Source of the DNA: a virus
Length of the DNA: 27,890 nt
Reading direction: 5' to 3' (one strand)
Virus record (IMG/VR): IMGVR_UViG_3300008216_000055
Span: 1-27,890 of that record
The position numbers and the translations under genes are program-made. Of the stretch, positions 8,962 through 24,016 are shown piece by piece; within the stretch, counting starts at the first letter, position 1; each line of letters starts with the position of its first letter. Below the pieces are notes generated by a model that saw nothing but the letters and a program-made list of their open reading frames with translations, was not told the DNA's origin and made no database searches.

Positions 8962-10368
8962 CTAGGCTCGGGTTGCTACCGACAGGAACGGGGTCAGGGT
9001 ATTAGAACCGTTCCGAGGCGTCAGAGCCGAGTCGATCCACGGGCGCCCATCCACACGCTGGATGAAGCGGAAGTCGGTCTCGTCTGTGCTGAAGCGGACG
9101 TGCTCGCTGGAAGCCATCTCCAACTGCATCCGGTCACCGATCAGGTAGTAAGACGGGTCGACCAGGTACACGTCACCCGCAGTCCCCAGAGTCTCGGCCT
9201 TCTCGGTGTAGACCACCGGTCGCCCCAGAAGCATCGGGGTAGGCGCGCCAGTGATCCCGCCAGCCGGGAAGTACATCGGGGCGCCGCCAGTGCCAACCGA
9301 CAGGCTCATCGTGTAAAGCTGCGGTTGTACGTCCGGGTTCACGAGCCAGATGCTCCGCATAATCGAAGAAGGAAGCATCCGGGCGAACATCTTGATGATG
9401 TTCTCCACGACGAGCGTAGTTGCCGCCTGGCCCGTCTCTTTGCCCACGGACACCAGCGCGTCAGCATTCTTGATGCCGAGGGGCTGCCCGCCGCCGATCC
9501 CGGCGATAAAGGCGTCGTCCTCAAAGTACGCCAGCGCCTCCGCGAACAGCGTGTTAAGCAGGGGCTCCAGGGTGATCGCGCTATCCCGCAGAAGTTCGTT
9601 GCTGATCCGGGTCCCGCCGACCAGCTTCTTAGCCGTCAGGACCGCCTGGGCAAACGTCGGCTCGCTCTGGGTAATGGTACCCGACTCAGGTATCCAGTAG
9701 GCCGTCACGCCGCCGTAGACGTTGCTGGCGTGGGTGGTGTCCCGGATGGTAGGGATACGAGTCGTCAGAGTAGCCATTGGGAGTACCCTGGCGCGGGGCC
9801 GTATGGCCGCCGCCTCAAGGGACATCCGCAGTAGCTCGGCGCGGAACTCCTCGGGTACGAGGAACCCGCCCTGGTCGCCCTGGCTCTCGCCGAGTACCTT
9901 CACCCTGGCGTCTAGCCCCTGCCTCGTAATGTGAGGGGAGATCGCCCTTGCGAAGTCGATGAAGTCCTCGAACTCGCCCGCGTCCATGCCCGCCCCAGTA
10001 CCGTTAGCGGCGATCTGGCGGGCCTCTTTGCGTGTCAGCTCAAGGTGCTTATAGATGGCCATACGGTCGGATCGCGTAAGGCCCTGCTTGCCCGCGGCGC
10101 TCGGGTCCATAGGCACCCGCTTGACGGCCTCGGGCATGATGGTCTCGTTCGCGTCGTAGAACTCTTTGAGGCCATTCGCCACGCCCTCGGCGATCTGCTT
10201 ATCGATATCGGGGTCGTGTTTGCGGTGGAGGGCGGCGTATTCCTCCATAAAGGATCGAAACTTCGCCTGGTCCTCCGGGTCCGTGCTCATAGCCCACTTA
10301 GCGACATGACCGCCGCTTAGCGCCTCCTCAAGCTCCTCAGAGGTCCGAGGTATTGCCTTAGTGACCAT
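8962..10368 (-). CDS. HK97-fold major capsid protein
   Basis: The product has 468 residues; ATG 10368 has TAGGAGG upstream, overlapping the protease stop region. Residues 1 to about 150 form a long charged helical N-terminus (EELEEAL, FRSFMEEYAALHRKHD, RKEARQIAANG) as in the delta (scaffold) domain of HK97 gp5-like proteins. The capsid domain follows, with GGFLVPEEFRAELL, YWIPESGTITQSEPTFAQAVLTAKKLVGGTRISNELLRDS, GIGGGQPLGI and a C-terminal beta region. The adjacent protease gene supports processing of the N-terminal domain. High confidence from motif pattern and neighbours. Confidence 0.93.
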   Translation of the reverse strand: MVTKAIPRTSEELEEALSGGHVAKWAMSTDPEDQAKFRSFMEEYAALHRKHDPDIDKQIAEGVANGLKEFYDANETIMPEAVKRVPMDPSAAGKQGLTRSDRMAIYKHLELTRKEARQIAANGTGAGMDAGEFEDFIDFARAISPHITRQGLDARVKVLGESQGDQGGFLVPEEFRAELLRMSLEAAAIRPRARVLPMATLTTRIPTIRDTTHASNVYGGVTAYWIPESGTITQSEPTFAQAVLTAKKLVGGTRISNELLRDSAITLEPLLNTLFAEALAYFEDDAFIAGIGGGQPLGIKNADALVSVGKETGQAATTLVVENIIKMFARMLPSSIMRSIWLVNPDVQPQLYTMSLSVGTGGAPMYFPAGGITGAPTPMLLGRPVVYTEKAETLGTAGDVYLVDPSYYLIGDRMQLEMASSEHVRFSTDETDFRFIQRVDGRPWIDSALTPRNGSNTLTPFLSVATRA

Positions 10369-10380
10369 TTGATATTCCTC

Positions 10381-11322
10381 CTAATGGACGCCGTTAAGGG
10401 CTTCGCGTATTACGTCGGCTGCATCCGGCGCCATCGGGTGCCCTTCCACCCCTAAGCGCCGGTCGAGGGCTTCGTCAAGGCGTTGCATAACTGCAATGTG
10501 GAACACATCGGCGAACGCCCGCAGCATGTCCTCGGTGACGCCGATGTCGATTTCAGGGACCTCCCGGAAGGCCGTCAGTTCGGCCTGTAGGCGCTCCAAG
10601 CCGCGTTGAAGCTGTGCCTCGGTGAGCGCCAGGTCGCCAGACGAGGTAGCGCCTTCAAGTAGAGCATCGTGCTCCAGGGTCTCCACGTACTCGCGGAGGC
10701 CGGGGTGGACACCGGCGAAGCCCTTGGCTAACTGTAGCGCCTCAGGGTTCGACGGGATGGTCACCTGGGAGATTTCGAGGAGTTCCTGGCCCTTGAACTC
10801 GTAGTTGGGCCACCAGTCGGAGGAGTCCTCCAGCTTGACGGCCTTCTCCATGTCGGGAACGAACCCGACGGAGTAGGCGGCCTTCCCACGCTTTGCAAGC
10901 TCCCAGCCCCAATCAGCCTCCTGGTTCCCAGCGTCCTTGTAGTAGGTAGCGACGCCCTTCAGTTCCTTGGCCTGCCTGTCGACGGACACCGAAAGCTCCC
11001 CGATCTGGTTCGTGAGGCCCCGATAGTTGTGCGAGGAGAGGAGGACATTATGGGTGCGGAAGGTCTTGAGGTCCCAGAAGCTCTGACGGATGATGTCGCC
11101 GTCGCGGTCCTTCGCCTCGGTGGAGAAGACCGCGGAGACGGTGCCCTTGTCCTCGTCGAGGACCTTCGTGGTGGCGGTGACGAACTTGACGCGCCGGTGC
11201 TGGGGATCAGGGATAGGCAGAAGGAACCTGCTCAGGTCCATAGTCCCCTGGGCAGGCCCGGTATCGTCTATATCGACTCGAGGATCGACGCCAGGGATGC
11301 CTTCGCCGCCGCTCTTAGCCAT
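10381..11322 (-). CDS. HK97-family prohead (maturation) protease
   Basis: The product has 313 residues; ATG 11322 has AGGAGG at 11327-11332. The conserved core runs from about 45 to 200: VSAVFSTEAKDRDGDII, then LLSSHNY with the probable catalytic His98, AAYSVGFVP with the probable nucleophile Ser151, and LLEISQVTIPSNPEA. These match U35/HK97 prohead proteases, which cleave the capsid delta domain and themselves. A helical acidic C-terminal extension (about 215-313) probably serves incorporation into the prohead. It lies directly before the capsid gene and directly after an unusual control region. Confidence 0.92.
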   Translation of the reverse strand: MAKSGGEGIPGVDPRVDIDDTGPAQGTMDLSRFLLPIPDPQHRRVKFVTATTKVLDEDKGTVSAVFSTEAKDRDGDIIRQSFWDLKTFRTHNVLLSSHNYRGLTNQIGELSVSVDRQAKELKGVATYYKDAGNQEADWGWELAKRGKAAYSVGFVPDMEKAVKLEDSSDWWPNYEFKGQELLEISQVTIPSNPEALQLAKGFAGVHPGLREYVETLEHDALLEGATSSGDLALTEAQLQRGLERLQAELTAFREVPEIDIGVTEDMLRAFADVFHIAVMQRLDEALDRRLGVEGHPMAPDAADVIREALNGVH

Positions 11323-11332
11323 GTCGCCTCCT

Positions 11333-11357
11333 GTTGGGCAACAAAAAAGCGCCCAAC
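11333..11357 (-). promoter_or_regulatory. Hairpin abutting the protease SD, alternative to the terminator fold
   Basis: On the minus strand GTTGGGC (11357-11351) can pair perfectly with GCCCAAC (11339-11333), with an 11-nt loop that contains the T-run of the preceding terminator. The second arm is directly followed by AGGAGG, the SD of the protease gene. The first arm overlaps the 3' arm of the terminator stem, so the two folds exclude each other. Confidence 0.55.
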
Positions 11358-11390
11358 CTGTACGTTCCGGTCAACGTACGAGTCGGGCGC
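11343..11390 (-). terminator. Intrinsic terminator (attenuator-like) upstream of the protease gene
   Basis: Read on the minus strand, GCGCCC (11390-11385) pairs with GGGCGC (11354-11349) and GTACGTT (11379-11373) pairs with AACGTAC (11366-11360) around a 6-nt loop. Between them the arms continue through two Watson-Crick pairs and two G-U pairs with one C/A mismatch. Six T residues follow (11348-11343). This is a classic Rho-independent terminator shape on the coding strand of the head genes. Confidence 0.75.
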
Positions 11391-11399
11391 TCAAGCGCC
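11386..11399 (-). promoter_or_regulatory. Small hairpin overlapping the 5' arm of the terminator
   Basis: GGCGCT (11399-11394 on the minus strand) pairs with AGCGCC (11391-11386) with a 2-nt spacer in the middle, so the effective loop is at least 4 nt. It shares bases with the first arm of the terminator and would compete with it during transcription. Small stem; moderate support. Confidence 0.35.
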
Positions 11400-11508
11400 G
11401 GGAGGGAGGGTGATATGCCCCTGCCTACCTAGCGGGCCACACGGTCGGGAGCATCGGGCGTCTAGCGCACTGGCCCCCGAAAGGGTTCTATATATTGGTT
11501 ACGCTAAT

Positions 11509-11539
11509 AGGATAACCACAACACTTAGGGGGTTGTCAA
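11509..11539 (-). promoter_or_regulatory. Candidate sigma-70-type promoter between portal and protease genes
   Basis: Directly after the portal stop codon the minus strand has a perfect -35 TTGACA (11539-11534) and a -10-like TATCCT (11514-11509) with a 19-bp spacer, or TTATCC with 18 bp. The -10 is weak and the spacer long, so strength is doubtful. It overlaps an imperfect operator-like dyad, GGTTA...TAACC, at 11497-11517. Together with the terminator it would make a start-and-attenuate module for the head genes. Confidence 0.45.
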
Positions 11540-11541
11540 GC

Positions 11542-13845
11542 CTACTCTATGACGTATCTCTCCGCTTTGCACCGGCGGCACCAGTGCTTCGAGCCCTTCG
11601 GTACATCCTTGGCCAGCAGAGCGTTGCAGTCGGAGCATCGGAACTCGGGTACGACTCGCGCGATAGGCTTGCCGCAGCCTAGACAATGGGTGAGGCCATT
11701 CCGGGCCGCAATCCGGTTTAGGTAGCCACACGGGCATTCCATAATCTGGATGGTTCCGCGCGACTCCTCGACCGCCTGCGCTGCCTCGTCTCCGATCCCC
11801 TCCAGCGGGTCGATGTCCGAGACCGGCGCCGTCCGATAGGTGTTCGCGCAGCGACAGTTGGGATGCTGCGGGATGGTGGAGCGCCCGGAGGGGAATGGGT
11901 CTCCTACCTTTATCCACCCCGCAGCCTCGTTGGCCCGGCACTCCACTGAGACTAGTTCATCCCCCTGCGTCACCCACTGCTTCTCGTCCTGGTCCTGGAT
12001 GATCGCCGCCTGCATGGCCCCCTCCCCGAGTGCCGTGGCCGTCTCCGTGCGGGCCACCAAGCTAGCCCGGTCCTTGCTGAAGGCGAAGTCGGATTGGAGC
12101 GCACCCTGTAGCTCCCCGAGACTCCGGCCTTCCTCGATCGTCTGCGCTACCAGTTCCCCTACCCGCCGTCGCGTATATGCAACTAGGTTGGCATCGCCTG
12201 TCACCGTGAGCAGTTCGGCGCCCCGGTGCTGGGCGTACCGTGAAGCGAGCACCTGGGCCTGCGCCGCCTCGACCTCGGGATAGGCTTCGGCAATGGATAG
12301 CTCGAACAGGTCCTCCAGTTCGGCCACGGTGTCGTCGCTGTACTTGCTCCACCAATCCCAGTCGTATCCGTTGACATCCGACTCCTCGATCTTCGCCACC
12401 GGTGGCAAATCCTTGGTGAAGTCGCCAATCGTCTGTATGCCCTTGAACTGTTCCAGATATGCAACAAGGGCACTCGACTCGGTAGCCAGGCGATCGGACC
12501 ACGACTGAGCTATCAGACGCCGCTGGCTCGCTACGGACTTCGTATCGAAGGCGTCCAGGATAAGGCCATTGAACTCGGCGACCGGGAAGGACCTGCGGGG
12601 CGGCTTGGCGCTCAGGGCAAAGGGTAGCCCTCCACCGGTGGGCTTGAACTCGTCGCCGTCGTCCACCTCGCCGTAGCCGAGGAGGCCACGGGACTCGTTC
12701 AGGGTCAGGATACCTGTCGCATAGCCGTCCCGCGCCTCCAGGAGGTCCCGATCCCGGTCCTGGGGTGTCGGGTCCCGGAAGTCGAAGGTCAGGTCAGACG
12801 GTCCGTATGTGGGCAATAGGCGCCTATTCAGCGCCCGCCGGAAGCGCCGCAGCCTGGGGCGCACTATCCACCTGCTGAAGGCCACCTCGGCCGCCTCGGC
12901 GTTGGCCCGGTTGACCGACTCGCTGATCCCCAGCATGGCCAGGGGCATCCCGAAGGCGCCGAGGATAATGTCACGCTCCAGGCGCCGTAGCTGCTCCATT
13001 TGCATATCGCGCTGGGTGTACTTCCGGTCGACCCATTTGCCCTTCTCCAGGATGGCGATGCGATGGGCATTGGCGACGCCCTTGTGCTGCTCCCTCCACC
13101 GCGTGATGTAGCGTTCCCACGCTGTATCGTCCATTGTCTGGTCAAGCTCGATCACGCCGCCGGGCTCGGCGTTGTTCACGAAGAAGTTTCGTGTCCACTG
13201 CCCGGCGTACTTCTCCGATTCGAGGTCGTATATGAGGGCCTGCACCGGCCCGAGGCCCCGGTAGGGGTTCAGCGGGTGCGGCATCCGAATGAAGATTATG
13301 TCGTCGACGTCCAGTGGGATGCGCTCGGACCCGATCACATAGAGGTAGCCCTGGATGAACTCGTCGGGGTGAGGGATCGGCCGGATGCGGTCGGGGCGCA
13401 TAGGCCATAGCTCGACGGGCCTGCCCCTGGAATCCCGCAGGATCAGCCACCAGCACTCCCCGGTAAGGTCGAGATGCTGCTGGCACGTCTCCAGGAACTC
13501 CTCGCGTCCGTAAAAGGGGTTAGGCTGCTCCCAGAGGTCGAGGACGGGGTGGGACTCGACCTCCCGGCGGTCGTCGCCGGTCCCACGGTACAGGGTCCAC
13601 TCGTTGGCGCCGACCCCTTGGCTAATCCGGCTGACCGTGGAGAACAGCCATCCGACATCGGCGTACCGCTCCATGTTGGCGGTGGGGCTCTGACCAGGCT
13701 GGCCACCACCGAACAGGCCGCCCATGAAGCCACCGACGAGCCCCAGGTTAGGGGCCATCGGTATCCGGTCCGGTGTCGCTGCCCTGATACGGCTCTTGAG
13801 GTAGCGCCCCATAAGCCCTACCAGGCTATCTGATCGTTCTAGCAC
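11542..13845 (-). CDS. Portal protein fused to MuF-like domain and C-terminal zinc fingers
   Basis: The product has 767 residues; it starts at GTG 13845 with GGAGG eight bases upstream. Residues 50 to about 400 are an HK97-type portal (GWLFSTVSRISQGVGANEWTLYR, HPVLDLWEQPNPF, MPHPLNPYRGLGPVQAL, GAFGMPLAMLGISESVNRANAEAAE). Residues about 430-670 match the SPP1 gp7/Mu gpF head morphogenesis family, with ARTETATALGEGAMQAA (598-614), KQWVTQ and the signature IPQHPNCRC (658-666). Residues 704-759 add two ribbons, CPC/CLGC and CSDC/CRRC; the latter, RCSDCNALLAKD, resembles the Mu Com zinc finger. Portal and MuF are normally separate proteins. The fused protein would form the DNA-entry ring and supply the internal head protein in one chain. 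Confidence 0.9.
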   Translation of the reverse strand: MLERSDSLVGLMGRYLKSRIRAATPDRIPMAPNLGLVGGFMGGLFGGGQPGQSPTANMERYADVGWLFSTVSRISQGVGANEWTLYRGTGDDRREVESHPVLDLWEQPNPFYGREEFLETCQQHLDLTGECWWLILRDSRGRPVELWPMRPDRIRPIPHPDEFIQGYLYVIGSERIPLDVDDIIFIRMPHPLNPYRGLGPVQALIYDLESEKYAGQWTRNFFVNNAEPGGVIELDQTMDDTAWERYITRWREQHKGVANAHRIAILEKGKWVDRKYTQRDMQMEQLRRLERDIILGAFGMPLAMLGISESVNRANAEAAEVAFSRWIVRPRLRRFRRALNRRLLPTYGPSDLTFDFRDPTPQDRDRDLLEARDGYATGILTLNESRGLLGYGEVDDGDEFKPTGGGLPFALSAKPPRRSFPVAEFNGLILDAFDTKSVASQRRLIAQSWSDRLATESSALVAYLEQFKGIQTIGDFTKDLPPVAKIEESDVNGYDWDWWSKYSDDTVAELEDLFELSIAEAYPEVEAAQAQVLASRYAQHRGAELLTVTGDANLVAYTRRRVGELVAQTIEEGRSLGELQGALQSDFAFSKDRASLVARTETATALGEGAMQAAIIQDQDEKQWVTQGDELVSVECRANEAAGWIKVGDPFPSGRSTIPQHPNCRCANTYRTAPVSDIDPLEGIGDEAAQAVEESRGTIQIMECPCGYLNRIAARNGLTHCLGCGKPIARVVPEFRCSDCNALLAKDVPKGSKHWCRRCKAERYVIE

Positions 13846-13909: not shown

Positions 13910-14029
13910 TTACGCGTAGATGTCCACCGCGCCGTTATCCCGCGGGAGCCCGATGGCGGCGTGGTGGTGTCCCTCATGTCCTGAGCCTCGGCGCCTTGTC
14001 CCATTACGAATAGAGCACCAGTACATCAT
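13910..14029 (-). CDS. Small His/Arg-rich protein (39 aa), coupled to the peptidase gene
   Basis: The ATG at 14029 overlaps the TGA of the peptidase gene (ATGA), and the frame ends at TAA 13910-13912. The product begins MMYWCSIRNGTRRRG, then has GHEGHHHAAIGLPRDNGAVDIYA. The overlap and close packing favour a real small gene, and the second half reads like natural protein, but the length is short and only GGTGGG precedes the start. No function is recognised. Confidence 0.42.
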   Translation of the reverse strand: MMYWCSIRNGTRRRGSGHEGHHHAAIGLPRDNGAVDIYA

Positions 14030-14487
14030 CGCACCCACCCGACCCGGCGCGGCGGCCAGTAGCGGAACGAGACGCGACCAAGGACCTTGTCGATTGGGAC
14101 ATCCGGGTAGTCGACCACGTCCCGGTTGTCACTGCGGAGGTCGGCGACAACACCCCGTCCCCGGCCGACGGTGAACGTGGTTATCCTCTTCACGACAAGG
14201 TCGAGGTCCACGATAGGCCGAGCGATCACGACGCAAAAGCTGAGCCGGTACCGCACCACGACGCAGCGATCACCGGGCTGGAGCGTCGGCGTCATGGACG
14301 TCCCGACCATCTTGACCAGCCACGGCCGCCTCATGCGTTCAGCCCCGCCGCCATCGCCGCGCCCTGTGCCGACTCGCCCACGACCAGCCCCGGCGTCTGG
14401 TGGGGGCCTTCGTGCTTCGGTGCCCGGCTCCCTCATAATCTCCTTCAGGACCTGGTATGCCCAATGCCACGATCGACAACGCTTCAT
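14026..14487 (-). CDS. S24/S26-type serine peptidase-like protein (signal peptidase/LexA fold)
   Basis: I chose ATG 14487, two bases after the preceding stop; MRRPWLVKM at 14334 is an alternative. The 153-residue form has VGTSMTPTLQPGDR with the predicted nucleophile Ser64, and LVVKRI with the predicted general base Lys100. The spacing of 36 residues is like the Ser-Lys dyad of LexA/UmuD and signal peptidases. LRSDNRDVVDYP and VLGRVSFRYWP fit the later conserved boxes. There is no obvious membrane anchor. Residues 13-22 (LKEIMREPGT) copy a terminase segment, and residues 23-50 are Gly/Arg/Pro-rich. It may process a virion or host protein, or be an auxiliary regulator; the position in the packaging cassette is unusual. 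Confidence 0.65.
   Translation of the reverse strand: MKRCRSWHWAYQVLKEIMREPGTEARRPPPDAGAGRGRVGTGRGDGGGAERMRRPWLVKMVGTSMTPTLQPGDRCVVVRYRLSFCVVIARPIVDLDLVVKRITTFTVGRGRGVVADLRSDNRDVVDYPDVPIDKVLGRVSFRYWPPRRVGWVR
14418..14450. repeat. 33-bp perfect direct repeat shared with terL (copy 1)
   Basis: These 33 bases are identical to 15565-15597 inside the terminase large subunit gene, 1147 bp away and in the same orientation. Both copies are read in the same frame and encode LKEIMREPGT. This copy lies in the N-terminal region of the S24/S26-type peptidase. Confidence 0.9.
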
Positions 14488-14489
14488 GG

Positions 14490-14714
14490 CTAGACTTCCC
14501 CAACGTCGAGCAGAGTGCCCGACCGCTCGTAGATTTGGCCTAAATGGAAGACCGCCTTCAAGCAACTCTCGATAGGGTGCTCGGCTAGGAGCACCGCGAA
14601 CATCGCCGCAAACTCCTCCTGCATTTCCGGGGAAGGCACCAGTGAGCCCTCCTCGATCACGCCAAGGGTATGCTCAAACGCCTTCAGACGGGCGGCGTGG
14701 CTTTCGTCATTCAT
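14490..14714 (-). CDS. Small hypothetical acidic helical protein (74 aa)
   Basis: I take the ATG at 14714 as start; a GTG at 14729 would add five residues, and neither has a clear SD. The product begins MNDESHAARLKAFEHTLGVIEEG and continues with EMQEEFAAMFAVLLAEHPIESCLKAVFHLGQIYERSG, an all-helical acidic protein. It ends two bases before the peptidase start, so the two are probably co-translated. No family is recognised. Confidence 0.55.
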   Translation of the reverse strand: MNDESHAARLKAFEHTLGVIEEGSLVPSPEMQEEFAAMFAVLLAEHPIESCLKAVFHLGQIYERSGTLLDVGEV

Positions 14715-14857: not shown

Positions 14858-16225
14858 TCAAACGAACCTCACGCTTGGCTCCCCCTCCAGCATAAGCTCG
14901 GACAGGCCCCACACGACAGCATCGAGGCGGTCCGGCGACGCTTCCCCCGGCTTGTTCTCCCAGGTGCACATCTGATCTTCGAGGTCCGGGAACTCCCCGA
15001 CGTGGTGGACCTTGCCCTGTTGGTACAGTGCCGCTACCGGCTCCGCACGGGTACGTTTCCCTCGACTCGCGTGGACTAGCTGAACCGGCACCACCATACC
15101 ACGATTTCGAGCGGCGACGCCGATGGTAATCTCCACCAGTTCGCCGCCGTTGTTCGCTTCTGCAACGATGGTGTCGGCCTTTAGCTCCAGGTAGAGGTCG
15201 ATGGCCCGGTTAGCCCAGTCCAGCGGCGACATCCTGCCCGAGGCGTCCCGGAAGACGTAACCGTGGCTGTTCTCTCCGATCCCAGCCGCTACGATTCCCG
15301 CCTCATCGCTCTCCTCGGAAGTCGTAACGTTCGGGTCTATGGCTACCACAAGTCGTCGGATATTGTACTGCTCAGGTGTACCAAGCGCCACGCGCCGATC
15401 GTCGATCCAGGCCCGCTGCCATAGCGCCCCCTCTAACTGCTCTATCAGCTCGGCGTATATCTCCTGACGCCCTAGGTTGGTGCCCTCGTACTTGCGGATG
15501 ATGGCGGCGAAGAAGGACGGGGGCAGGTTCGCCATGTTGTCGTAGGTGGCGCCCCTGGTGGTCACGGTGCCCGGCTCCCTCATAATCTCCTTCAGGAGCT
15601 TGATGGGCTTCGGTGTCGTGGTGATGGTGACCCTCGGTGCCTGCCCGAGGCGAAGGCCGAATTGCAGGTTGTTCCACGTCTCCCGCGGGTATTTCCACGA
15701 TCCCAACTCGTCGCACCATGCCTCGTCGAACTGGGGGCCTCGTAGCTGGTCGGGCTCATAGGAGCTAAAGCAAAGCGCGAAGGCACCGTTGGGCCACGAT
15801 AGCTTCCGGTTGGCCTTGTTGTAGGTTGGCCGTTGATGCGGTGGTGAAACAGCGATCAGGCCGGACTCCCCCTCGATCATCGTGTCCCGGATGTCCGCCG
15901 GTGTCCGAGCCACCAGCGCCCACCTGCCCGAGCGACCAGAGTCTACGCCGTCACGGACTGTCTCGGCGCCCGTCCTCGTCTTCCCCCAACCCCTCCCCGC
16001 TAGGATCAGCCACGTCAGCCATGCCCCCGGCGGCGGCATCTGCTCCGTTCGCGCCCAGAACGTCCACTCGTATAGGAGGGCTCTCGCTTCCTCCTCCGGC
16101 AGAGAGAGCACGAGTGCCGTCAAGGAGTCCTTCTGCTTCAGCCTGCTCAAGTCTTCCAAAGTGGAGACCGAGCTTATCGAGGAGGGCTTTCCTGGGGTCG
16201 TCGTAGACGTTGAGGTCGATTTCAC
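14858..16225 (-). CDS. terL: Terminase large subunit (packaging ATPase-nuclease)
   Basis: The product has 455 residues; it starts at GTG 16225 with GAGGT six bases upstream. Walker A is GRGWGKT (77-83), Walker B ends in the acidic pair Asp172-Glu173 (EAWCDELG), and the coupling motif TTTP is at 202-205. The RNase H-like nuclease has Asp297 (VVAIDPN), Glu356 (VAEANNGG) and Asp432/Asp435 (PDRLDAVVWG). It pumps and cuts DNA at the portal. The start lies 275 bp inside the small subunit frame. Its segment LKEIMREPGT (211-220) is duplicated at DNA level in the neighbouring peptidase gene. Confidence 0.94.
   Translation of the reverse strand: MKSTSTSTTTPGKPSSISSVSTLEDLSRLKQKDSLTALVLSLPEEEARALLYEWTFWARTEQMPPPGAWLTWLILAGRGWGKTRTGAETVRDGVDSGRSGRWALVARTPADIRDTMIEGESGLIAVSPPHQRPTYNKANRKLSWPNGAFALCFSSYEPDQLRGPQFDEAWCDELGSWKYPRETWNNLQFGLRLGQAPRVTITTTPKPIKLLKEIMREPGTVTTRGATYDNMANLPPSFFAAIIRKYEGTNLGRQEIYAELIEQLEGALWQRAWIDDRRVALGTPEQYNIRRLVVAIDPNVTTSEESDEAGIVAAGIGENSHGYVFRDASGRMSPLDWANRAIDLYLELKADTIVAEANNGGELVEITIGVAARNRGMVVPVQLVHASRGKRTRAEPVAALYQQGKVHHVGEFPDLEDQMCTWENKPGEASPDRLDAVVWGLSELMLEGEPSVRFV
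15565..15597. repeat. 33-bp perfect direct repeat within terL (copy 2)
   Basis: This stretch is identical to 14418-14450. It encodes LKEIMREPGT right after the TTTP coupling motif of the terminase, a conserved place, so this copy is the likely source and the copy in the peptidase gene the duplicate. Confidence 0.9.
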
Positions 16226-16529
16226 CTGATACCTCGTGCCGCTGTGCGTTCTTCCACCGCTCCGGGCTCCGGTTGTATAGCCAAACCTGCTGCGCCGTTA
16301 CGTTGCCGCCGATCGCCGAGAGGTACATCGCCCCCTCGACGCGCTCGTTCGCCGTAGTCTCCGCATAGGATACGTCCTCGGCGAAGGCCGGATACTTGTG
16401 CATGTGCTTCTCGACGGTCCGGGCGTTGACGCCTACCTGAGCCGCGCACGCCATCCGACGCCCACCGGCGGTAAGGAGCCGGATGTACTCCTTCTTCTTT
16501 ACTGCGTCGAACTTTTCGATCCTACCCAT
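15951..16529 (-). CDS. terS: Terminase small subunit (HTH DNA-binding)
   Basis: I chose ATG 16529, whose first bases overlap the stop of the methyltransferase gene (ATGGGTAG); the longer frame to 16613 lies inside that gene. The 192-residue product begins MGRIEKFDAVKKKEYIRLLTAGGRRMACAAQVGVNARTVEKHMHKYP, a typical TerS helix-turn-helix (about 14-48). Helical regions follow (VSYAETTANERVEGAMYLSAIGGN, QQVWLYNRSPERWK). The last 91 or so residues overlap terL in another frame and become Gly/Ser/Asp-rich. It would recognise the packaging site and load the large subunit. Confidence 0.82.
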   Translation of the reverse strand: MGRIEKFDAVKKKEYIRLLTAGGRRMACAAQVGVNARTVEKHMHKYPAFAEDVSYAETTANERVEGAMYLSAIGGNVTAQQVWLYNRSPERWKNAQRHEVSGEIDLNVYDDPRKALLDKLGLHFGRLEQAEAEGLLDGTRALSAGGGSESPPIRVDVLGANGADAAAGGMADVADPSGEGLGEDEDGRRDSP

Positions 16530-17742
16530 CGACCAGCACCGCCTTCTGGCCAGTGTAGTCTTCCCAGCGTCGGATTGTGACGTCGCAGTAGCGAGGCTCA
16601 ATGTCCAAAGCATAGCACCGCCGCCCTAGGCGCTCCGCTGCGATGATGGTTGTCCCAGATCCGACGAAGGGCTCGTAGACATCGCCCTCGTGGTTGCGTA
16701 TCGGGCGCTCCATGCATTCGAGCGGCTTCTGGGTGCTGTGCCCTCCCTCGACGTTAGCGTCTAGCGGGATAGCCCATAGCGTCGTCTGGGATCGATCGCC
16801 AGCCCATGCGGCGGTCTTGCCCTTTCGGACGGCATACCAGCACGACTCATGCTGCCAATGGTAATGACCTCGCCCGATTGCGAATCGTGTCTTGGCCCAT
16901 ACGATTTGGGATCGCGTCTCGAACCCCTTGGCCTTTAGGCTTTCCTGAACCTCTTGCGCCGTCGCGTCATGCCACACGTAAGCAACGGCGCCTGGGAATA
17001 GCGCCCATGCCTCGCTCCAATCGGCCCGGTCGTCGTTCGTGACGGTGCCGACTCTTGGGCCTGTCCTGGCAGTTAACCCAGCGTCGGCGCGCCAAATCGC
17101 GTCATAGCTAACCCCATAGGGCGGGTCGGTCACCATGAGATTAGGCGTCACCCCACCCAGCAACGCCCCCACGTCCTCCTCGTCGGTCGAGTCCCCGCAC
17201 ATCAGCCGGTGCTCGCCGAGCTGCCACACCTGGCCCCGTTGCACCGTTGCAGCGTAGTCGTCCGCCTCGGCTGCATCTATAGCGGCGCCAGTGTCGTGGG
17301 TTTCCTCTTTCGGGTCCTCGGGCAACGTGAGCGTTGCTAGCCCACCATCTGCGACGGACGCAACGAGTTGCGACAGGACATCGCTGTCGAATGCGGCTGC
17401 ATCGGCAAGGGTCTTGATGGCATCGGTGTCCGCCTCCGCCATCGCCGCCAAGGGGTCCAGCGTCAGCAGGAGCTTGCGGGCCTCGTCGTCGTCGAGGTCG
17501 AGTACGAGCACCGGGACTTCCGTATCCGGGGTGGTCTCGGCTCGTAGGTGCCCGTCGAGTATCTGTAGGCCGTCCGGCGTCTCCCGCGCGAGGATCGCAT
17601 CAGCGTACCCTATCTCCCCGAGGACCGCTTCAATCGCCCGACGCTGAGCCGGTGGGTGCTGGCGCCAGTTCTCCGGGTGTGGCAGAAGCTCGGACGCCTT
17701 GACGGAGCGTAGCTCCTTTACTCTGTTGCGTATCTGCATCAT
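16522..17742 (-). CDS. DNA methyltransferase with N-terminal ParB-like domain
   Basis: The product has 406 residues; it starts at ATG 17742 or the adjacent ATG 17739, after GGGGGA. The N-terminal part has the ParB/Srx fold signature (ELLPHPENWRQH, then DGHLRAE at 63-69). The catalytic domain carries motif IV DPPY (206-209) and motif I FVGSGTT (359-365) in the order of beta-class N6-adenine/N4-cytosine enzymes, with STQKPLECMERPI between. DPPY suggests N6-adenine methylation. Such phage enzymes often protect phage DNA from restriction. It is coupled to terS by an 8-bp overlap. Confidence 0.9.
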   Translation of the reverse strand: MMQIRNRVKELRSVKASELLPHPENWRQHPPAQRRAIEAVLGEIGYADAILARETPDGLQILDGHLRAETTPDTEVPVLVLDLDDDEARKLLLTLDPLAAMAEADTDAIKTLADAAAFDSDVLSQLVASVADGGLATLTLPEDPKEETHDTGAAIDAAEADDYAATVQRGQVWQLGEHRLMCGDSTDEEDVGALLGGVTPNLMVTDPPYGVSYDAIWRADAGLTARTGPRVGTVTNDDRADWSEAWALFPGAVAYVWHDATAQEVQESLKAKGFETRSQIVWAKTRFAIGRGHYHWQHESCWYAVRKGKTAAWAGDRSQTTLWAIPLDANVEGGHSTQKPLECMERPIRNHEGDVYEPFVGSGTTIIAAERLGRRCYALDIEPRYCDVTIRRWEDYTGQKAVLVDG

Positions 17743-21806: not shown

Positions 21807-23198
21807 TTAAATCCCCAACGGTAGCGACACTTGGGCCAGCCTCTTTTCAGCCAGCGCCAGGTAGTCAGCATTGAGGTCAACGCCGATGGCTCGACGCCCG
21901 AGCTTCTGAGCCACGACACAGGTGGTGCCGGAGCCTGCGAAGGGGTCGAGCACTGTGGCACTTATCGGGGCTCGGTCGTGGTCGCAGGTGGGCCGCCAGC
22001 CGAGAGTCTGATCCGGATGTTCTGCCTTCCACCGGGCTTGTTCCTGCCCACTTAAGCGCGAAGCACGGAATCCCATATTGCCAGCACCGACATTTCCAGC
22101 TTGGCCGCGTTCAAGCCGCTTCGGTGGATTGCGGTGATTTGGTTCTGTTTGCGCTTTCCCTTTCTCAACGACCCGCTCCCACGGCGCGCCGCACTCGGGG
22201 CAGACGCCATGCTCCGACGTGCCGGCCAGGATGCACGGCTCGACCAGCGCCTCTGGAAATGTAGCGAAATGTGCCTCGGGGTAGGGCTGCGTGGCGACCT
22301 CCCACACCGACCGCTTGTTGCGGCCACTCACGAGGGTGTCATGCTTTGCAAATCCTGCTGCTGTCCGTCTATCGTTGGTAGGCGTAGCGCCATCGAGGTT
22401 CTTCGCATCGTGGCCAGACGCCCTAACTAAGCGGCCCTCGTGAATGGCGCTCTCCCGAACCGCGTCGGCGTCGTAGTAGTACCGTTCAGCCTTCGTCAAC
22501 AGGAAAAGGTACTCGTGGCTCCGGGTCGGGCGATCGGTCACGCTCTCGGGCATGGGGTTGGGCTTCGACCACACGACGTCGCTGCGCACCCACCAGCCAT
22601 CAGCTTGGAGCGCGAGCGCCACGCGGGCAGGCATCATGCAAAGGTCTTTGTCCTTCAAGCATCCAGACAAACGATCCACCCGTTCCGCAAGGGCTGGGGA
22701 TGTATTCCCAATGATGTTGCGCCTAGAGGTAGACCAGGCCGAGGCATAGGAATCGCCGATGTTCAGCCAGCACGTCCCGTCCTTCCGCAGCACACGCCAG
22801 AGCTTGCGGAACACCTCGACCATGTGCTCGACGTAGAGGTCGATGGTCGGCTCCAGGCCAAGGGTGCCACGCCAAGCGCCGCAGGGGCAGCAGGACCTAG
22901 ACGAGGCTGACCGTAGCGGCTCTCGCTTCGCATCGACCCCACCAGGCTGTAGTTCACCACGACCGTTGACACCCTGTGCCCAGTTGCCCTTGCCTATTTC
23001 AGTGGCGACCGTTTCGTTCTCCCACTCGTGCTCGTGGTCGTCGCCGCCCCAAACGCTCGGTTCCAGCCCGTAGTCCCTCAAGCCCCAGTAAGGCGGGCTC
23101 GTCACGATGCAGTGCACCGACTCGTCGGGGACCCCGCTCAGGTCGCGGGCGTCGCCCTGGTAGAGCCGCACCACGCCGTTGTCGTAGGTTGGGGTCAT
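21807..23198 (-). CDS. DNA methyltransferase (beta-class N4-cytosine/N6-adenine, TSPPYW type)
   Basis: I chose ATG 23198 because it overlaps the loader's TGA (ATGA) and starts the conserved region; the open frame to 23402 is shadow of the loader. The 463-residue product opens with YDNGVVRLYQGDARDL, has motif IV TSPPYW (33-38), later KPNPMPESVTDRPTRSHEYLFLLTK, and ends with motif I DPFAGSGTTCVVAQKLGRRAIGVDLN (FAGSGTT at about 420). SPPYW often marks N4-cytosine enzymes, but N6-adenine is possible. A cysteine pair CPECGAPW (about 340) suggests an inserted zinc knuckle. The gene is bracketed by an intact and a decayed copy of the loader tail. Confidence 0.9.
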   Translation of the reverse strand: MTPTYDNGVVRLYQGDARDLSGVPDESVHCIVTSPPYWGLRDYGLEPSVWGGDDHEHEWENETVATEIGKGNWAQGVNGRGELQPGGVDAKREPLRSASSRSCCPCGAWRGTLGLEPTIDLYVEHMVEVFRKLWRVLRKDGTCWLNIGDSYASAWSTSRRNIIGNTSPALAERVDRLSGCLKDKDLCMMPARVALALQADGWWVRSDVVWSKPNPMPESVTDRPTRSHEYLFLLTKAERYYYDADAVRESAIHEGRLVRASGHDAKNLDGATPTNDRRTAAGFAKHDTLVSGRNKRSVWEVATQPYPEAHFATFPEALVEPCILAGTSEHGVCPECGAPWERVVEKGKAQTEPNHRNPPKRLERGQAGNVGAGNMGFRASRLSGQEQARWKAEHPDQTLGWRPTCDHDRAPISATVLDPFAGSGTTCVVAQKLGRRAIGVDLNADYLALAEKRLAQVSLPLGI

Positions 23199-24016
23199 GC
23201 TGGCACCTTCAGCCGGTAGTCTTCCGCCACGCACCAGATCACCCGGACGATCCCCGAGGAGCGATCGAACAACCGCGACGCGAGCCGGTGGCCCCACTTC
23301 TCGGCCAACTGGTCCGGGGTGGTCCCGTTGGTGGCCGCGATCATGTACGACCCGTCCGCGTAGCGATGGTCGACGATGTCCGTCAGGTAGTCGACGCCCC
23401 ACGGGGTGACGTTTGAGTCAACGCCTATCTCGTCCAACGCGAGCAGGTGAACGGATCGCAGAAAGTCCATTAGCTCGGTAACGCCTTCGCCCGAACCTAC
23501 GGCCGCCCGGAGCCGGTCTAGGAGGTCTAACGCGTTCGTGTAGTAGACCGAGTGCCCCGCCGTAAGGACGGTGCGGCAGAGCGCCTCTAGCATGTGGGAC
23601 TTGCCCGCACCCGTAATCCCCGAGAGCAGGAGGTGACGCGGCCCAGCGCCCTTGCTTAGCGCGACCACGGCGCCGAACATCTCCCGCGTATCGGTTGTGG
23701 GCTTGAAGTTGTCGAAGGTCCGAGGACCGACCGGATCATTGCGGATCGGAAGGTGAGCCGCTATGAGGTTTTGCTGATCCTGCGCTTCGCGCTGTAGCAC
23801 CGCCTGATCCATTCCGCACATATACGGGGAAAGTCCGGCCGCCGACCCGTTAGCTAGGGCTGGCCGATGCTCCTTGGCCCACTCGACGAAGCTGGCGATC
23901 CTATCCGCCCGAAGACCGCCGCCAGCGCCACACTTGAAGCAATCCTCCCGGGGAGTACAGAAGAACTCGTCAGGGACTGGCGTCCTAGGGGTCGTATCGA
24001 ATACGAGCGGGTTCAT
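23195..24016 (-). CDS. DnaC/IstB-like AAA+ ATPase, putative helicase loader
   Basis: The product has 273 residues; ATG 24016 overlaps the stop of the replication protein gene (ATGA). N-terminal cysteines (C20, C26, C29; CTPREDCFKC) may bind zinc. The ATPase core has RTFDNF (99-104), Walker A GITGAGKSH (133-141), Walker B LLALDEIG (191-198), and a sensor region ATNGTTPDQLAEKWGHRLASRLFD. These are typical of phage helicase loaders, which place the replicative helicase on the opened origin. Position directly after the origin-carrying gene supports this role. Confidence 0.88.
   Translation of the reverse strand: MNPLVFDTTPRTPVPDEFFCTPREDCFKCGAGGGLRADRIASFVEWAKEHRPALANGSAAGLSPYMCGMDQAVLQREAQDQQNLIAAHLPIRNDPVGPRTFDNFKPTTDTREMFGAVVALSKGAGPRHLLLSGITGAGKSHMLEALCRTVLTAGHSVYYTNALDLLDRLRAAVGSGEGVTELMDFLRSVHLLALDEIGVDSNVTPWGVDYLTDIVDHRYADGSYMIAATNGTTPDQLAEKWGHRLASRLFDRSSGIVRVIWCVAEDYRLKVPA

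Follow-up and report, generated by a model that had tools for sequence, protein, structure and literature searches.

The window, meaning the whole stretch of DNA analysed here, is a 27,890-base virus record from an uncultured phage and is possibly a genome fragment. Its head genes, which encode terminase, portal-MuF, protease and major capsid, lie on the minus strand. The features at and around the locus are as follows.

14858-16225, minus strand: terminase, a head gene
14026-14565, minus strand: HTH-like ORF lying between terminase and portal (1 kb), weakly matching a repressor-like family (phrog_4, E 8e-5)
11542-13845, minus strand: portal fused to MuF (PF04860 and PF04233)
11545-11643, minus strand: C-terminal Com-like zinc ribbon of portal-MuF, FRCSDCNALLAKDVPKGSKHWCRRCKAERYVIE, its C-x2-C..C-x2-C conserved in relatives
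11534-11539, minus strand: -35 element TTGACA, seen as sequence, directly after the portal-MuF stop codon
11509-11514, minus strand: candidate -10 element TATCCT, seen as sequence, spacer 19 nt, a weak promoter part
11386-11399, minus strand: antiterminator-type hairpin GGCGC-UUGA-GCGCC (seg2:seg3), 5 bp, -7.9 kcal/mol
11343-11392, minus strand: predicted intrinsic terminator hairpin (seg3:seg4), GAGCGCCCGACTCGTACGTTGACCGGAACGTACAGGTTGGGCGCTTTTTT, about -31.8 kcal/mol
11333-11357 (core 11356-11334), minus strand: downstream hairpin GUUGGGC..GCCCAAC (seg4:seg5), seen as sequence, -9.4 kcal/mol
11327-11332, minus strand: protease Shine-Dalgarno sequence AGGAGG, seen as sequence
10381-11322, minus strand: head maturation protease (PHROG head maturation protease, E 1e-11), the gene behind the putative attenuator
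8962-10368, minus strand: major capsid, a head gene

The earlier note had described the gap between portal and protease as the only large one in the head operon. From portal to capsid this is borne out, as 11323-11541 is the sole large non-coding gap there; the 1 kb between terminase and portal contains the HTH-like ORF, which is a possible regulator within the head operon. The whole gap folds better than its shuffles (z -3.6, 1 of 200). Portal-MuF is a single 767-aa protein in the window and two genes in the type A relatives defined below, and its C-terminus has two Cys-rich ribbon-like stretches. This small phage genome also has two DNA methyltransferase genes (16522-17742 and 21807-23402, minus strand), the first of which has a ParB-like N-terminal part.

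The individual elements that the earlier note placed in the gap are present in the window. The perfect -35, TTGACA, stands at 11539-11534 of the minus strand. The best -10, TATCCT, is poorly spaced at 19 nt from it, and this is the weakest point of the observation. The long stem followed by six T's was confirmed at 11392-11343, with apical loop GACCGG, an internal stem mismatch and the T-run at 11348-11343; a GC-rich stem followed by a U-run before the coding region, as in attenuator leaders, is thus found in the window. The upstream hairpin (11399-11386) uses the terminator's first arm, as had been proposed. The downstream hairpin shares the terminator's last arm and abuts AGGAGG, in agreement with the proposal that it touches the protease Shine-Dalgarno sequence, and the U-run lies in its loop. 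An imperfect direct repeat, GCGCTnGAnCGCCCGA, at 11451-11468 and 11380-11398 may provide, upstream, a decoy for the first arm of the terminator; repeated first arms similar to it occur in the relatives L113 and L013.

A generic promoter and terminator scan listed neither the window promoter nor the window terminator. The pattern used for promoters is restricted to spacers of 16-18 nt, which excludes the window promoter; in the case of the terminator, an internal mismatch in the stem is the probable cause. The suggestion of a riboswitch was not upheld, since a scan of the window and six relatives against Rfam gave no match above the gathering score and nothing points to a ligand.

Relatives, all uncultured phages, were collected by portal and protease searches of IMG/VR. 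Besides near-identical contigs of the window (L003, L020 and L021), there are many further relatives at roughly 40-55% protein identity. About 30 distinct relatives have a promoter, a leader, an antiterminator-type hairpin and an overlapping terminator directly 5' of the protease gene. TTGACA or a one-base variant stands 5' of the element in nearly all of them, and TATCGT or TATCTT is found at the place of the -10. Portal relatives at about 50% (type A) with a readable gap usually have TTGACA, 16-18 nt, a TATCGT-like hexamer, a leader, a hairpin with a T-run and then the protease, so that their promoter spacing is mostly canonical. In type A, an unpaired AAUAG stretch is invariant and the sequence near the expected start site is conserved. 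The more distant protease relatives (type B: L095, L113, L120, L121, L123-L125, L129, L131 and L133) keep the layout with a different sequence. Their apical loop is often ACCGGA or ACCGAA, a feature that the window shares; GACCGGAAC is common to the window and L120. Dyad symmetries, possibly repressor sites, were seen between -35 and -10 in L005 (5455-5489, ACAGACC-ATTAAA-GGTCTGT) and in the promoter spacers of L013 and L039.

The element follows the protease gene. Where genes are inserted after MuF (L005, L015, L037, L039, L047 and L052), it stays with the protease; L200, a locus found through the zinc ribbon alone, carries it too; and in ten contigs no further copy was found outside the protease site. 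There is variation among the relatives: L113 and L124 are without a good antiterminator hairpin, and in some relatives the stem is followed by just four U's, which may make termination leaky. By eye, no conserved short ORF that could be a leader peptide was seen in the leaders. A T-arm-like stretch noticed by eye in the leader of L121 was rejected as a tRNA because ARAGORN finds none. The isolate search gave remote portal and protease matches only, and no isolate of the collection searched was found to have the element; isolates Dagobah and phiKM1 have neither the layout nor the gap. Two portal scans of GTDB genomes gave no prophage relatives.

In the protease tree the window has a long branch and groups beside type A (95/92). 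When a covariance model built from the relatives was run on the window, it hit the right place, but with 5.7 bits and an E value of 7, which is not significant; the case for kinship of the window element is therefore made by its position, its layout and the protease phylogeny. In L004, L005, L013 and near-identical contigs there is an N-terminal ORF just 5' of the protease start (about 2111-2368 in L004), in which an in-frame UGA stands in place of the Cys that relatives have in ARSHC. The frame is conserved beyond this UGA to the next ATG, with synonymous changes, one in-frame deletion and FEPASAPEIRS. The UGA is a candidate selenocysteine or read-through site of the head protease; the ORF may alternatively be split.

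For covariation, 28 distinct elements were tabulated by hand. At the most variable position of the antiterminator (z4:x2), CG was found 13 times, UA 12 times and GC twice, with one mismatch (CA); 27 of the 28 distinct rows therefore pair, against 23.1 in shuffles (5 of 2000). The second position (z2:C1) is GC in 25 elements and AU in three, the changes from GC to AU being in L120, L129 and L131. Pairing is seen in 163 of 171 cells of the terminator arms; shuffles give 140, and none of 2000 reaches 163. The terminator helix has AU, GC, UA and GU at y1, UA and AU at y2, and CG to UA at C1, with arms such as CCCAU/AUGGG, CCCUA/UAGGG, CCCGA/UCGGG, CCCGUUC/GAACGGG and GUCCGAC/GUCGGAC. On the protease tree the antiterminator pair changed state at least eight times and terminator y1y2 at least seven times. 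A sign test on well-supported branches gave four pairs, all in the expected direction (p 0.125), and just four pairs cannot reach significance. In L095 an antiterminator G-C pair is kept at a place where the terminator arms are unpaired.

The type B antiterminator segments were chosen by eye, and this is partly offset by an automatic control independent of segment choice, in which a hairpin of at least 4 bp with three GC pairs had to share the terminator's first arm. Such a hairpin was found at 21 of 26 element terminators (the listed rows minus two upstream terminators and three duplicates) and at 32 of 152 other terminator-like hairpins of the same loci (p 7e-9). The alternative, excluding hairpin is thus conserved with compensatory changes, as in attenuators. 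The downstream hairpin fared differently: it is present in four of the 26 elements (the window, L120, L129 and L131), is absent from the other 22, and was rejected as a core part.

The layout of promoter, terminator and competing fold in the window is above chance because it is conserved and covarying in the relatives. As read from these alignments, the two folds exclude each other and both are kept by evolution. Separate control of protease and capsid by exclusive folds, as the earlier note had it, is therefore supported by comparison for the promoter, the terminator and the upstream hairpin, and is not supported for the downstream hairpin as a general part. It seems fairly likely to us that the gap serves the protease-capsid unit as a transcription attenuator close to its promoter, with the MuF ribbon as candidate reader of the leader, and head gene output is probably gated in these phages. 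The lowest rank among the alternatives falls to an ordinary terminator ending the terminase-portal transcript, with neighbouring hairpins and a promoter-like match by chance: a 4-bp hairpin sharing the first arm is not rare in the controls (32/152) and the window promoter is imperfect, but the promoter precedes the terminator, deep relatives have conserved the two of them, and the competing hairpin covaries and is enriched, which makes this explanation very improbable.

We infer promoter activity, termination, control of read-through, ligand and timing from sequence. RNA polymerase would start just inside the gap at the putative promoter and make a leader of about 160 nt in the window and about 75 nt in most relatives. 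Because the promoter is upstream of the terminator, its transcripts must pass the terminator. A separate simple terminator is found just 5' of the promoter in several relatives (automatically in L015 and L052; by eye in L037, L103 and L118), so the element terminator would there mainly meet RNA from its own promoter. By default the leader would end at the strong intrinsic terminator, since this is predicted to be far more stable than the competing hairpin (-31.8 against -7.9 kcal/mol, or about -32 against -8). Relief of this stop late in infection, which the earlier note had inferred, gained no support here. The small hairpin forming just before the terminator would take up the terminator's first arm. 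If some factor holds this antiterminator hairpin, the terminator could not form, and protease and capsid would be transcribed. At the family level the likeliest holder may be the Com-like zinc ribbon that ends MuF, encoded next door; this is a lead, and a weaker one for the window.

This putative attenuator resembles RAT-type leaders (BglG/LicT/SacT; ANTAR, PMC3369936) in having, close to the promoter, a small hairpin immediately 5' of an intrinsic terminator, with a shared arm and exclusive folds. It differs from them in that its hairpin is short, its loop is variable and the genes controlled would be phage head genes. No BglG or ANTAR protein was found with PHROGs and/or Pfam among 34 window ORFs, small and overlapping ORFs excluded, and such a protein could be the host's. 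As in trp-type attenuators, there is a chain of competing helices (possible seg1:seg2, seg2:seg3 and seg3:seg4); unlike in those, no conserved leader peptide was seen, and the possible seg1:seg2 hairpin keeps only about two pairs.

In the element-bearing phages with a readable MuF end, MuF ends in a zinc ribbon, RC-x2-C..C-x2-C; the MuF of L121 is not on its contig stretch, and the ribbon of L113 is more remote. With the window ribbon alone, the top PHROG match was gpCom (E 0.021), followed by 'translational regulator' (E 0.11), both weak scores. The L095 ribbon is above the Pfam cutoff for PF10122 (Com), with 24.1 against 22.9 bits. With E values up to 1 allowed, phrog_6417, 'translational regulator', is hit by 16 of 18 ribbons, the best E value being 3e-6. 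Comparison of the ribbon with solved structures gave no useful match. Neither ribbon nor gap is seen in the protease relatives that lack the element (L135-L163 and two isolates), and their MuF ends at its CRC motif; L135, L136 and L157 were flagged for a ribbon, which we judged to be due only to the pattern catching the CRC motif. The co-occurrence of ribbon and element is confounded by descent.

Com of phage Mu binds CC(N)2-3GAG in a hairpin loop in vitro; selection gave the longer motif NGAGNNCC(N)2-3GAGNNCCNN, and the natural site reads GAAUGCCUGCGAGCAUCCC (PMC6483171). Type A leaders mostly have UGAAUAG(A)CC(N)2GAGG. At a fixed place close before the terminator, CC(N)2-3GAG is found in 24 of 31 elements, the window being among the 31, whereas shuffles predict 2.1. 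For the longer motif, about 0.63 Mb of non-redundant sequence yielded 12 distinct contexts, of which 10 lie within these leaders; in the L095, L059 and L063 leaders it is at a different position. L129 and L131 have CCAAGAG further upstream. The core is absent from L113, L120, L123, L124 and the window, where the 70 nt before the terminator have only the GAG(N)2CC half, GAGCGCC. CCNNGAG occurs 113 times in the whole window against 104 expected, so that it is uninformative genome-wide and informative only by its fixed place in the leader.

CCNNGAGG overlaps seg2, and loops ending in GA are also found in many antiterminator hairpins, so binding could favour either the antiterminator or the terminator. 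It is possible, and we propose it tentatively, that the MuF ribbon, portal-fused in the window, binds the antiterminator or the CCNNGAGG hairpin, decides whether transcription passes into the capsid genes and thereby ties head-protein supply to portal/MuF. Because the window is a divergent member, with a weak ribbon score and no core motif, the Com reading is a family-level lead and for the window a possibility only. Our literature search found nothing on MuF-Com or on an attenuator before a phage protease.

In lambda, the pR'-tR' layout consists of a promoter, a short leader and a terminator before the late structural genes, and the order of the element here resembles it. Processive antitermination of the lambda Q type, for which lambda 6S RNA ending at tR' is the precedent, would give a short terminated RNA as long as no phage antiterminator has been loaded at the promoter or close to it; polymerase carrying one would pass the element terminator and later ones, and the competing hairpin would be secondary. 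The conserved sequence near the expected start site in type A agrees with this. However, covariation of the antiterminator hairpin and the conservation of both this hairpin and CCNNGAGG are not predicted by it, and no Q-like protein was recognised among the window ORFs searched, in what may be a genome fragment. We regard this mechanism as unlikely.

That the element is a gene for a small non-coding RNA acting in trans, the protease being transcribed by read-through or from elsewhere, is a little harder to sustain. Such a gene would explain a self-contained unit of 75-160 nt with promoter and terminator, as well as the invariance of unpaired AAUAG in type A; however, the element directly precedes the protease gene in every case and travels with it, and in several relatives another terminator blocks upstream transcription, which would leave the protease without an obvious other promoter.

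The attenuator that we favour shares with the Mu Com-mom switch (PMC6483171) a Com-like zinc ribbon whose coding sequence lies immediately 5' of the controlled leader, CC(N)2-3GAG in most leaders, the longer selected motif in several and, in type A, the flanking GAAU of the natural mom site. Mu Com, however, is a free small protein acting on mom translation, whereas the ribbon here is the tail of the virion protein MuF, and it would act on an intrinsic terminator ahead of the protease gene; the window is without the core motif. If control were translational as in Mu com-mom, the structures would mainly set access to the protease ribosome-binding site. The Com-like domain and motif of the relatives and the abutment of the window's downstream hairpin on AGGAGG would suit this. 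Nevertheless it is improbable, as the conserved structure is a hairpin with a U-run, many relatives have the Shine-Dalgarno sequence outside it or not recognisable, and the downstream hairpin is so rarely kept.

In conclusion, the comparative evidence indicates that a real, conserved attenuator-type leader lies before the protease-capsid genes of these phages, and its Com-like candidate reader is unexpected and testable. An RNA of this type, absent from Rfam, appears to gate the capsid genes across a set of tailed, uncultured phages. Should its reader be the Com-like ribbon, one structural protein would link head assembly and head-gene transcription, and the Com-like ribbons scattered among phage proteins would acquire a role open to testing, along with a known RNA motif to seek. 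Com-like proteins would then extend from translational activation to transcription attenuation, in a direct feedback loop from assembly.
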